Part shown: positions 30,796 through 59,767 of the stretch, piece by piece
Position numbering within the stretch: the stretch's first letter is position 1
Layout of the letters: each line of letters starts with the position of its first letter
Assembly (NCBI RefSeq): GCF_030512175.1
Contig: NZ_JAULBL010000002.1
Span: forward strand, 2,850,149-2,914,148
DNA length: 64,000 bases
Direction of reading: 5' to 3'
Source of the DNA: Paeniglutamicibacter sulfureus
GTDB taxonomy: Bacteria > Actinomycetota > Actinomycetes > Actinomycetales > Micrococcaceae
The notes under the pieces: generated by a model
What the model saw: the letters and a program-made list of their open reading frames with translations, nothing else
What the model was told of the DNA's origin: nothing
The model's database searches: none
Translations under genes and position numbers: made by a program

Positions 30796-31437
30796 TGAGG
30801 AGTCATTTTGGCTATTTATACCTTGCCTGAGCTGCAGTACGATTACGCGGCCTTGGAGCCGAACATTTCGGCGCGGATCATGGAGCTGCACCACTCGAAG
30901 CACCATGCTGCCTATGTGGCCGGTGCGAACACGGCGTTGGAGCAGCTGGCCGAGGCGCGGGAGAAGGGCGAGTTCGGGAACGTTCCGAAGTTGTCCAAGG
31001 ACCTGGCGTTCCACTTGGGTGGTCACACGAACCACTCGATCTTCTGGAACAACCTTTCCCCGGAGGGCGGGGACAAGCCCGAGGGCGAGTTGGCTGCGGC
31101 GATTGACGACGCGTTTGGTTCCTTTGACGCTTTCCGTGCGCACTTCACGGCCGCGGCGATGAGCCTGCAGGGTTCGGGTTGGGCGTTGCTGGGCTTTGAG
31201 GGCCTGGGTGGCCAGTTGGTCATCGAGCAGTTGTATGACCAGCAGGGCAACGTGCCGGTGGCGACGACTCCGTTGTTGATGTTGGACATGTGGGAGCACG
31301 CGTTCTACCTGGATTACGTGAATGTGAAGGCCGATTACGTGAAGGCTTTCTGGAACATCGTGAACTGGGCCGATGTTTCGGCCCGCTTCGAGGCGGCGCG
31401 TGCCGGTGCCCCGAAGCTTGTCGTCCCCGGCAAGTAA
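30796..31437 (+). repeat. perfect 642-bp direct repeat, copy 1 (sodA)
   Basis: Every base from 30796 to 31437 is the same as 59126-59767. The repeat begins 12 bp before the TTG start codon (TGAGGAGTCATT) and ends exactly at the TAA stop. Bases immediately outside differ on both sides. Confidence 0.97.
30808..31437 (+). CDS. sodA: superoxide dismutase (Mn/Fe), copy 1
   Basis: A 209-residue enzyme converting superoxide to oxygen and peroxide in the cytoplasm. Metal ligands are His28 (LHHSKHH), His76 ([10 protein letters not shown]), Asp160 and His164 ([11 protein letters not shown]). Gln146 and the NHSIFW context favour manganese. The start is TTG with GAGGAG about 6 nt upstream. Codons are richer in TTG and GGT than flanking whiA and gap, despite presumed high expression. 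It sits between whiA and gap, which I take as the native place (inference). An identical gene lies at 59138. Confidence 0.96.
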
Positions 31438-31487
31438 TCCGAGGACTTGGAGACGTAAGCCTCCTCACATTTATCGCCTCTATGGCG

Positions 31488-31493
31488 TAAGAT
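31488..31493 (+). promoter_or_regulatory. probable -10 element of gap transcript
   Basis: TAAGAT lies in an A/T-rich stretch about 190 bp before gap and would give a long structured leader. The -35 is weak (TCACAT, 17-bp spacer). Confidence 0.35.
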
Positions 31494-31507
31494 GTAAACA
31501 TCGAGTT

Positions 31508-31543
31508 TTGCGTGTCTTGCGGTTAATTCCGCAAGACACGCAA
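31508..31543. promoter_or_regulatory. 15-bp perfect hairpin in sodA-gap gap
   Basis: TTGCGTGTCTTGCGG (31508-31522) and its complement (31529-31543) enclose TTAATT. No T-run follows on the plus strand, so it is not a standard terminator. It could be a structure in the gap leader or at the sodA mRNA 3' end. Confidence 0.6.
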
Positions 31544-31573
31544 TAACCCGGTCAGCATCCCAGCTGACGACAC

Positions 31574-31608
31574 AACGGAGTGTCCAATTTTTTCCAAGCC
31601 ACTCCGTT
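31574..31608. promoter_or_regulatory. inverted repeat upstream of gap
   Basis: AACGGAGTG (31574-31582) and CACTCCGTT (31600-31608) are perfect arms separated by 17 bp containing a T6 run. It lies 70 bp before the gap start and could be an operator or an RNA stem. Confidence 0.5.
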
Positions 31609-31678
31609 TCCTGTGTCCCAACACCGGGGCCCTCTTTTCGCGGCAGTGGCAACACCACTCTGTTTAGGAGAAATACAC

Positions 31679-57997: not shown

Positions 57998-58477
57998 ATG
58001 GATACGGGTGATGGAACGTCGCAGGATCTGTCCGTGGGGCAGCTGGCTGACAGGTCAGGCGTTGCAGTCTCGGCGCTGCACTACTACGAGCGCGAAGGGC
58101 TGATTTCTTCCTGGCGAACCACGGGTAACCAGCGGCGGTTCGACCGAAGCGTGCTGCGCCGCGTGGCAGTGATTCGTGCCGCCCAGCGCGCCGGCATCCC
58201 GCTTCGGTCAATCGCCGAACTCTTCGCCGGGCTGCCCGCTGACGGAACGCCACGCAAGGAGGACTGGCAAGCTGTTTCCGCGGCCTGGAGGGACGACTTG
58301 CAGGAGCGGATCCACCAGTTGCAGTCGTTGCGGGACGGGTTGGGTGGCTGCATCGGCTGTGGTTGCCTGTCGCTGGCCGAATGCGGATTCGTCAACCCCA
58401 ATGACCGATTGGCCGACGGTCTTGGAGGCGCGACGTTGTTCCGGGAGGACACGGAATTTGACCTCAACCAAGGTTGA
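57998..58477 (+). CDS. soxR: redox-sensing MerR-family activator SoxR
   Basis: 159 residues. A MerR winged helix (LSVGQLADRSGVAVSALHYYEREGLI) and dimerisation helix precede the [2Fe-2S] motif C-x2-C-x-C-x5-C at Cys118, 121, 123 and 129 (GGCIGCGCLSLAEC). That motif is diagnostic of SoxR. Oxidised SoxR activates promoters with overlong spacers. In actinomycetes it responds mainly to redox-cycling compounds rather than superoxide itself. Such a promoter overlaps the 3' end of this gene and points to the next gene. Confidence 0.96.
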   Translation: MDTGDGTSQDLSVGQLADRSGVAVSALHYYEREGLISSWRTTGNQRRFDRSVLRRVAVIRAAQRAGIPLRSIAELFAGLPADGTPRKEDWQAVSAAWRDDLQERIHQLQSLRDGLGGCIGCGCLSLAECGFVNPNDRLADGLGGATLFREDTEFDLNQG

Positions 58478-58488
58478 GGTTCTAGCGT
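58458..58488 (+). promoter_or_regulatory. SoxR-dependent promoter (SoxR box between -35 and -10)
   Basis: The -35 TTGACC (58458-58463) and -10 TAGCGT (58483-58488) are 19 bp apart, the overlong spacing of MerR-type promoters. The spacer contains most of the palindrome CCTCAACCAAGGTTGAGG (58462-58479). Its outer arms CCTCAA/TTGAGG equal those of the known sox box. It overlaps the soxR stop codon and should drive the flavin reductase-like gene. Confidence 0.85.
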
Positions 58489-58560
58489 GGGGGAGTAGTT
58501 GGACCAAGCCCGCCGCACCCGTGCGGGCGCCCCGCATGACGAGAGGAACCTGGACCCGCC

Positions 58561-59079
58561 GTGCAAACCCACATTCCAGCCGCCACGATCGCGGATCAAT
58601 TTCGCCTCGCCTTTGGAAACCATCCGGCGGGCGTTGCCGTGGTGACGGCCACCGGCCACTGCGGACCTGTTGGAATCACTGCCTCATCCTTGATCTCCGT
58701 TTCGGCCGAACCGGCCTACCTGGCGTTCAACATTGCGCAGCGATCGGGCTCCGCCGAAGTGATCCTGGACGCCGAGCACATCGTGGTCCACTTCTTGACG
58801 GAGCCCAATGCCGATGTGGCAACCTTGTTCGCCACACCCGGCGAGGAGCGCTTCTCGAAACTGGCAGGGTGGGAACAGCTGCCCACCGGGGAACCCCTGG
58901 TCCACGGGGTGGGTGTCGCGATGCGCTGCACCATCGAATCGCGGGTTGCCGCCGGACCGGCCACGGTCGTCGTCGCTTCGGTGCTCGAGGTCATCCCCGG
59001 CCAATCCACCGCTGCCCCGCTGGTGTACCACCGGCGCGGCTACCACAGCATCGGTGAGCACACCAGGCTCATCGCTTGA
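58561..59079 (+). CDS. flavin reductase-like (FMN-binding split-barrel) protein
   Basis: A 172-residue flavin reductase domain protein. FRLAFGNHPAGVAVVTATG, GITASSLISVSAEPAYLAFNIAQRSGS and HFLTEPNADVATLFA match the HpaC-like NAD(P)H:flavin oxidoreductases, which bind FMN and pass electrons to flavin or to a partner monooxygenase. No partner is adjacent. The GTG start at 58561 has GAGAGGAA about 13 nt upstream, a loose spacing. Its promoter is the SoxR-type element, so it is likely induced by redox-active compounds. Confidence 0.88.
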   Translation: MQTHIPAATIADQFRLAFGNHPAGVAVVTATGHCGPVGITASSLISVSAEPAYLAFNIAQRSGSAEVILDAEHIVVHFLTEPNADVATLFATPGEERFSKLAGWEQLPTGEPLVHGVGVAMRCTIESRVAAGPATVVVASVLEVIPGQSTAAPLVYHRRGYHSIGEHTRLIA

Positions 59080-59084
59080 CCGTC

Positions 59085-59110
59085 CCCGGGAAAACCCGGG
59101 TCCGGTTTTT
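59085..59110 (+). terminator. terminator-like hairpin between flavin reductase gene and sodA copy 2
   Basis: CCCGGG-AAAA-CCCGGG (59085-59100) is followed by TCCGGTTTTT. The 6-bp stem is short but GC-only with a T5 run, so partial termination is likely before sodA. Confidence 0.55.
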
Positions 59111-59125
59111 CACCGAAACATGAGT

Positions 59126-59767
59126 TGAGGAGTCATTTTGGCTATTTATACCTTGCCTGAGCTGCAGTACGATTACGCGGCCTTGGAGCCGAACATTTCG
59201 GCGCGGATCATGGAGCTGCACCACTCGAAGCACCATGCTGCCTATGTGGCCGGTGCGAACACGGCGTTGGAGCAGCTGGCCGAGGCGCGGGAGAAGGGCG
59301 AGTTCGGGAACGTTCCGAAGTTGTCCAAGGACCTGGCGTTCCACTTGGGTGGTCACACGAACCACTCGATCTTCTGGAACAACCTTTCCCCGGAGGGCGG
59401 GGACAAGCCCGAGGGCGAGTTGGCTGCGGCGATTGACGACGCGTTTGGTTCCTTTGACGCTTTCCGTGCGCACTTCACGGCCGCGGCGATGAGCCTGCAG
59501 GGTTCGGGTTGGGCGTTGCTGGGCTTTGAGGGCCTGGGTGGCCAGTTGGTCATCGAGCAGTTGTATGACCAGCAGGGCAACGTGCCGGTGGCGACGACTC
59601 CGTTGTTGATGTTGGACATGTGGGAGCACGCGTTCTACCTGGATTACGTGAATGTGAAGGCCGATTACGTGAAGGCTTTCTGGAACATCGTGAACTGGGC
59701 CGATGTTTCGGCCCGCTTCGAGGCGGCGCGTGCCGGTGCCCCGAAGCTTGTCGTCCCCGGCAAGTAA
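59126..59767 (+). repeat. perfect 642-bp direct repeat, copy 2 (sodA)
   Basis: Identical at every base to 30796-31437, with the same boundaries (12 bp before the TTG to the TAA). Confidence 0.97.
59138..59767 (+). CDS. sodA: superoxide dismutase (Mn/Fe), copy 2
   Basis: The 209-residue protein and its gene are identical to the copy at 30808, including the TTG start and GAGGAG site, so the metal ligands (His28, His76, Asp160, His164) are the same. Neighbours differ: it lies 58 bp after a SoxR-driven flavin reductase-like gene and before its own strong terminator. It may give a redox-inducible supply of the enzyme in addition to the presumably constitutive copy near gap. Read-through past the hairpin at 59085 would be needed, or an unseen promoter. 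Confidence 0.96.

Follow-up and report, generated by a model that had tools for sequence, protein, structure and literature searches.

In prokaryotes, protein genes are reported to undergo long-lasting concerted evolution only rarely; one survey, which covered 682 species, names 26 such genes, and sod is absent from its tables (PMC6053082). The tufA/tufB pair, known from enterobacteria as well as many other bacteria, is an old duplicate that occupies two contexts, has suffered lineage-specific losses and is homogenised in its coding parts by gene conversion (PMC6053082), which proceeds in repair-proficient Salmonella at 2e-8 to 1e-5 per cell per generation (PMC5485169). Among superoxide dismutase (SOD) genes, the sod1/sod2 pair of Haloferax volcanii is nearly identical. 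Joshi and Dennis reportedly ascribed such identity to gene conversion in 1993. The sodA1/sodA2 pair of Stenotrophomonas maltophilia combines a growth-linked manganese SOD with a SoxR-dependent, menadione-induced one (PMC6479884). Here, we describe two sod genes within a 64,000-nucleotide stretch of the Paeniglutamicibacter sulfureus genome (contig NZ_JAULBL010000002.1), hereafter the window, which evolve in concert throughout the genus. The phenomenon is already known in kind from tuf and the Haloferax sod genes. Yet, the tuf pair is another gene, whereas one of the two sod loci is tied to a stress regulator; the Haloferax work concerns a single archaeon, and its accessible part mentions no SoxR link; and the S. 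maltophilia proteins are 68% identical, so that they are not homogenised (PMC6479884).

The two copies of the repeat (Table 1) lie in direct orientation at an offset of 28,330 and show 0 differences over 642 bp, the exact extension ending at positions 30796 and 31437 of copy A. This agrees with the earlier note on this DNA, which had also stated that the flanks diverge at once and that the repeat is limited to the ribosome-binding site and the coding region. Indeed, compared without gaps over 300 bases, the flanks are 24% and 27% identical, i.e., at chance level, and the frame reading places the ribosome-binding site GAGGAG, the TTG start and the full 209-residue frame with its stop codon inside the repeat. 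Only two direct exact repeats of at least 25 bases occur in the window, the second being 26 bp long, and a search of the whole genome for sod gave matches at exactly these two places. NCBIfam identifies the product as an Fe/Mn superoxide dismutase (approximately residues 4–197, 144–179 bits); the metal is left unassigned because these scores lie under the equivalog cut-offs. An Rfam search of positions 30000–60000 returned no family above threshold and no known riboswitch before either sod copy.

The window belongs to a genus (g1; g numbers denote genus groups, G numbers genomes and L numbers loci) that, judged by SOD, is closest among named organisms to Paeniglutamicibacter quisquiliarum and two Arthrobacter strains. 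All 15 genus genomes searched, including our own, have sod matches at two places, with an additional short one in G008. The 410-contig assembly of G005 breaks off in both copies after 47 bases of the repeat, next to the flavin reductase gene in one case and next to whiA in the other; a collapsed repeat would look like this. Two full copies are present in each of the remaining 14 genomes, in direct orientation in 14 of 14, at distances of 28,330 to 44,955 bases. Since orthologous neighbours are found at both loci in all 14 of these readable genomes (rapZ-yvcK-whiA and gap-pgk-tpi at copy A, flavin reductase at copy B), the duplication dates back at least to the origin of the genus.

Despite this age, partners within a genome are nearly the same. 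Over 627 sites, they show 0 differences in seven genomes and 1, 3, 3, 3, 8, 9, and 19 in the remaining ones, whereas A copies of different species (90 pairs) differ at 11–108 sites, with a mean of 69, and the lowest figure for a B–B comparison between genomes is 9. The nearest copy is the partner from the same genome for 28 of 28 copies; in this count and in the 90 pairs, the same-species genomes G000 and G059 were left uncompared with each other. The divergence at silent sites (dS) is 0–0.12 within genomes against a mean of 0.62 between genomes, the latter being comparable with that of six flanking genes (0.45–1.21; whiA 0.58, gap 0.45, flavin reductase 1.21). In a tree of 60 rows, partners either group together or are adjacent without resolution, and 23 changes of the A/B label are required. 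When the B copies were forced into one clade (seven sets of identical rows being left free), the log-likelihood fell by 581 and the approximately unbiased test gave p = 1.7e-6, which rejects a locus-wise tree. The pair from a record titled Vibrio cholerae strain 35D was omitted from the 60-row tree since it equals that of G373, and genomes with cut, fragmented or mis-joined copies (G005, G061, G020, G043, G235, G244, G269, G306, G375, and G552) enter no pair count.

Paralogues are thus closer than orthologues, at silent sites too, and the loci are older than the species split. The earlier note had left a choice between a very recent copying event and gene conversion that is still ongoing. The former falls with the genus-wide presence of the loci, and the latter stands and is recurrent, because the loci are shared throughout the genus and partners are near-identical within genomes while species differ. 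Copies diverging as freely as unrelated sequence, which the earlier note would have counted against its claim, were found in no relative within the genus, the worst case being 19 of 627 sites (G001).

The ends of the homogenised part bear scars, which were read by eye from alignments. Six genomes (G000, G059, G008, G002, G006, and G011) have the leader AATGAGGAG at locus A and TTGAGGAG at locus B. The A-type leader AATGAGGAG stands at locus B in G001, G003, G004, G007, and G010, and a B-type leader, TTTGAGGAG, stands at locus A in G009 and G013. In G013, identity reaches 13 bases past the repeat start; in G008, similarity runs approximately 18 bases beyond the stop codon; and in G012, the shared part begins at the start codon. 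Because leaders of each type are found at the opposite locus, conversion has acted in both directions, spilling past the gene ends and leaving non-reciprocal tracts with detectable ends. The dS values within genomes have a mean of 0.018 (averaged by hand). If equilibrium is assumed, a simple balance between mutation and conversion suggests that, per site, conversion outnumbers silent mutation roughly 50-fold, which is a rough estimate. As a separate observation, partners in G007 (L120/L121) and G008 (L114/L115) differ in a Gly/Ser codon at sod codons 134–135 (GGC vs TCG/TCC), and the same codon alternates across the genus. Perhaps a foreign allele was imported into one copy; in a check of the clustered differences in these two genomes, most differing bases were present in other species, but silent sites vary too much to tell an import apart.

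The SoxR link of copy B is new relative to the earlier note. The open reading frame 57710–58477 scores 199 bits against the SoxR model TIGR01950 (cut-off 117), the match running from residue 107 onward, and the ATG ahead of this domain was chosen by us as the start of soxR. A minus-strand reading frame called over soxR is false; a SoxR search from a relative uncovered the gene. The palindrome at the end of soxR is the top-scoring site in the window, the next separate sites scoring 14 on the same strand and 15 on the opposite one. TTGACC and TAGCGT are spaced 19 bases apart, which is the usual spacing in SoxR promoters. The 20-position consensus was entered by hand and fixed after some loci were known, and the controls are simple base shuffles; the operator counts given here and below are thus descriptive and no blind test. 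By eye, the SoxR box of S. maltophilia sodA1 differs from the palindrome at one base of 20 (PMC6479884). All 14 genus B loci and that of G005 have soxR and a palindrome scoring 16–17. At the genus A loci, the best palindrome within 8.6 kb scores 12–13, and no match to soxR was found. The operator lies approximately 680 bases 5′ of the copy B sod gene, with the flavin reductase-like gene, for which no NCBIfam equivalog scored above its cut-off, and a weak hairpin in between. This order suggests co-transcription of the flavin reductase gene with sod and a putative SoxR control of copy B, whereas the whiA-sod-gap setting of copy A points to housekeeping control. In some relatives, other inverted repeats were seen by eye at the gap between flavin reductase and sod.

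The common loci, the homogenised copies, the two-way scars and the SoxR element at one copy only are direct observations. Very probably, they reflect old positional duplicates, homogenised by gene conversion, that provide one enzyme under two controls. On this proposal, neither gene would be a fresh copy. Copy A would be expressed under housekeeping control within the whiA-sod-gap cluster, and copy B, within the soxR/SoxR-box/flavin reductase/sod unit, would be expected to respond to redox-cycling compounds. Homologous recombination repair of one copy could be templated by the other, with non-reciprocal copying of sequence, i.e., gene conversion; the coding part would be evened out repeatedly, while the unrelated flanks with their different control signals would remain distinct. 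Repair between such copies is generally of the RecA type, and a mechanism of this type presumably operates here. The supply of one enzyme under two controls may be the reason why both copies are kept.

A detectable MutS_V match is absent from our genome and present in 11 of 14 control genomes. In Salmonella, mismatch repair reduces tuf conversion 200–1000-fold (PMC5485169). Our genome thus seems to lack the canonical barrier to recombination of imperfect copies, which is only suggestive. Direct repeats of such length can also recombine in a way that excises the interval, as in Haloferax, where recombination between the sod genes splits it off (PMC6063281). The earlier note had argued that this would remove important genes, which is reasonable in view of the interval content and the direct orientation in 14 of 14 genomes; the cost of such a deletion may explain why the arrangement persists. 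Its list of interval genes holds for gap, pgk, tpiA, the pentose-phosphate genes, the heme-type genes and suf; the supposed biotin genes are a BioY-type transporter cluster. The UbiA- and CtaA-type genes of the interval are presumably heme synthases.

Beyond the genus, a family sample of 395 genomes gave mainly single sod matches. Near-identical pairs were found in g21 (G033, G062), g52 (G094, G160, G186, G313, G373), and G300, with 2–10 differences over 612–624 sites, whereas different g52 species differ at 45–71 sites. Except for the second copy of G300, these pairs occupy the whiA-sod-gap and flavin reductase-sod settings, and four fragmented g52 genomes have both settings, broken at the repeat. 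From an order sample of 396 genomes, 24 were compared; they were picked for having two matches and give no prevalence figures. Among them, all pairs of g34 (10 of 10), g31 (2 of 2), and g37 (4 of 4) are near-identical, with 2–20 differences, and 8 of the 24 pairs are diverged, at 118–177 sites (G451, G555, G560, G562, G580, G634, G711, and G719). None of the 24 pairs shows intermediate divergence, and this gap fits a divergence limit for recombination. The g34 pairs, 10 of which were compared out of at least 14 genomes with two (nearly) full-length matches among the matches listed, sit at two other loci, whose upstream DNA is common to 10 of 10 genomes in one case and 9 of 10 in the other; in 7 of 10, the second copy has a soxR homologue nearby, and one of these was subjected to the family test. 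In three of the four other g34 genomes (G707, G554, and G731), the two copies score almost equally among the matches listed.

Operators were sought in the 900 bases upstream of each copy. Among the 38 near-identical pairs, a site scoring at least 15 precedes exactly one copy in 36, both copies in 0, and neither in 2 (G609, and G465 with a score of 14), while simple shuffles reach 15 in 4 of 760 cases. In 80 loci taken from the SOD similarity search, 6 reach this score, compared with 0 of 800 shuffles. It is reasonably probable that long-lasting concerted evolution of sod has recurred across the order, gene conversion keeping an operator-free copy and a SoxR-operator copy identical in several lineages and at different pairs of loci, with one enzyme under two independent switches. 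In the same reading, to which we give the same measured confidence, conversion would oppose the divergence of the proteins while the control regions diverge. A literature search that covered the top-ranked titles and the beginnings of their abstracts, with few subscription papers, showed no report of concerted evolution of sod in these bacteria, and combined searches gave no paper. sod adds a case to those known, with near-identical pairs in 38 genomes that belong to seven genus groups and with a likely and testable functional reason, namely, the same enzyme from two promoters. The pairs also form a natural set for measuring the direction of conversion, the tract ends and the divergence limit, in which our genome has no detectable MutS.

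Several points weigh against the proposal of one enzyme under two controls, homogenised by conversion. Actinobacterial NucS has an anti-recombination role between diverged copies in mycobacteria (PMC5290159), and since NucS also restrains recombination, conversion need not be easier where MutS is absent. Given the 19 differences in G001, conversion is episodic at best. In G676, a g34 genome, the second copy has 67% identity to the query and contains a stop codon, so that homogenisation failed there and hence at least once in g34. The T-run hairpin between flavin reductase and copy B could limit read-through into sod; it lies approximately 16 bases 5′ of the ribosome-binding site and is weak (z −1.9, with 10 of 200 shuffles equally good). 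Finally, 5 of the 8 diverged pairs also carry the operator at one copy. We therefore rejected the SoxR link as a special feature of homogenised pairs; because of these diverged pairs, the two-control design is wider than homogenisation.

SOD is an oligomeric enzyme, and conversion could be real with identity itself under selection, if diverged partners were harmful in mixed oligomers. Such a role fits the published list of concerted evolution, in which 22 of 26 genes encode proteins of stable complexes (PMC6053082), but the order genomes retain two diverged SODs in the 8 of 24 pairs at 118–177 sites. We consider this selection unlikely, although it is the strongest of the alternatives and is compatible with the two-control proposal. 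In each lineage, the entire gene might repeatedly have been lost and copied again into the same second site, which would equally produce near-identity within genomes. However, the same point next to flavin reductase would have to be hit many times with no homology in the flanks, and the short two-way edge scars suit conversion better; this scenario is in effect conversion renamed and is quite improbable.

An artefact of assembly or polishing, by which one gene was placed twice or real differences were erased, is less probable still. Short-read assemblies do break or mis-join at the repeat (G005, G061, and four g52 genomes), a practical warning for assemblies of these genes, and polishing might overwrite copy-specific bases. 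Yet, the one- or two-contig genomes G059, G003, G013, and G007 hold both loci, and each locus has conserved flanking genes. G059, which belongs to the same species and consists of one contig, has the two loci and a single copy-specific base, so that misassembly is very unlikely. A recent single duplication confined to the strain would account for the identical copies in the window but is hardly credible, being refuted by the same two loci in 15 of 15 genus genomes and the orthologous neighbours in the 14 readable ones. Codon selection without conversion can be dismissed: SOD is probably highly expressed, but silent sites differ freely from species to species (mean dS 0.62) and little within genomes.

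The features of the two loci are collected in Table 1. The models above cut-off for the rapZ/yvcK/whiA group are TIGR00647, NF003828, and TIGR01826.

Table 1. Features at the two sod loci and in the interval between them (positions in the window).
Feature	Position	Strand	Evidence or remark
rapZ	27783–28676	+	Upstream of whiA; NCBIfam over cut-off
yvcK	28683–29723	+	Upstream of whiA; NCBIfam over cut-off
whiA, gene before copy A	29665–30714	+	NCBIfam over cut-off; reading frame start unrefined
Repeat copy A, ribosome-binding site and sod, whiA-gap cluster	30796–31437 (coding sequence 30808–31437, TTG start)	+	Exact identity to copy B; SOD family match
gap, pgk, tpiA, 3′ of copy A	31580–34765	+	NCBIfam matches
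Inter-repeat interval	31438–59125		gap-pgk-tpiA-secG, pgl-opcA-zwf-pgi-tal-tkt
Same interval, further genes	31438–59125		UbiA-/CtaA-type genes, suf genes, BioY-type transporter, soxR, flavin reductase
soxR, 159 residues, redox-sensing MerR-family regulator with CIGCGCLSLAEC cysteine cluster	57998–58477	+	TIGR01950
SoxR-box-like palindrome TTGACCTCAACCAAGGTTGAGGTT, overlapping the soxR end	58458–58481	+	17 of 20 consensus positions
Flavin reductase-like gene directly 5′ of copy B	58561–59079	+	PF01613, 105 bits
GC-rich hairpin into TTTTT in the flavin reductase/copy B gap, possible partial terminator	59078–59110	+	Fold −18.9 kcal/mol
Repeat copy B, ribosome-binding site and sod, SoxR-linked locus	59126–59767 (coding sequence 59138–59767, TTG start)	+	Exact identity to copy A
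DUF5129 gene 3′ of copy B	59870–61375	−	PF17173

A few irregular sod records were encountered in the samples. In G061 (L145, L152), one contig reads flavin reductase-sod-gap, and whiA ends another contig inside sod; this junction of the B upstream side with the A downstream side is most likely a mis-join at the repeat. The sod match is split into at least two pieces at one place in G353 (L172/L181), G349 (L171/L182), G354 (L173/L183), and G269 (L192/L198/L215), as from frame shifts or assembly errors. The flavin reductase-linked copy of G186 (L178) has an in-frame TGA at alignment codon 125, its partner being open, which makes it a pseudogene or a sequencing error. Two records titled Vibrio cholerae strain 35D (L017 and L032; WNZI01000070 and WNZI01000004) contain sod loci of the Micrococcaceae type with the sod sequence of G373 (g52), and are probably mislabelled or contaminated.

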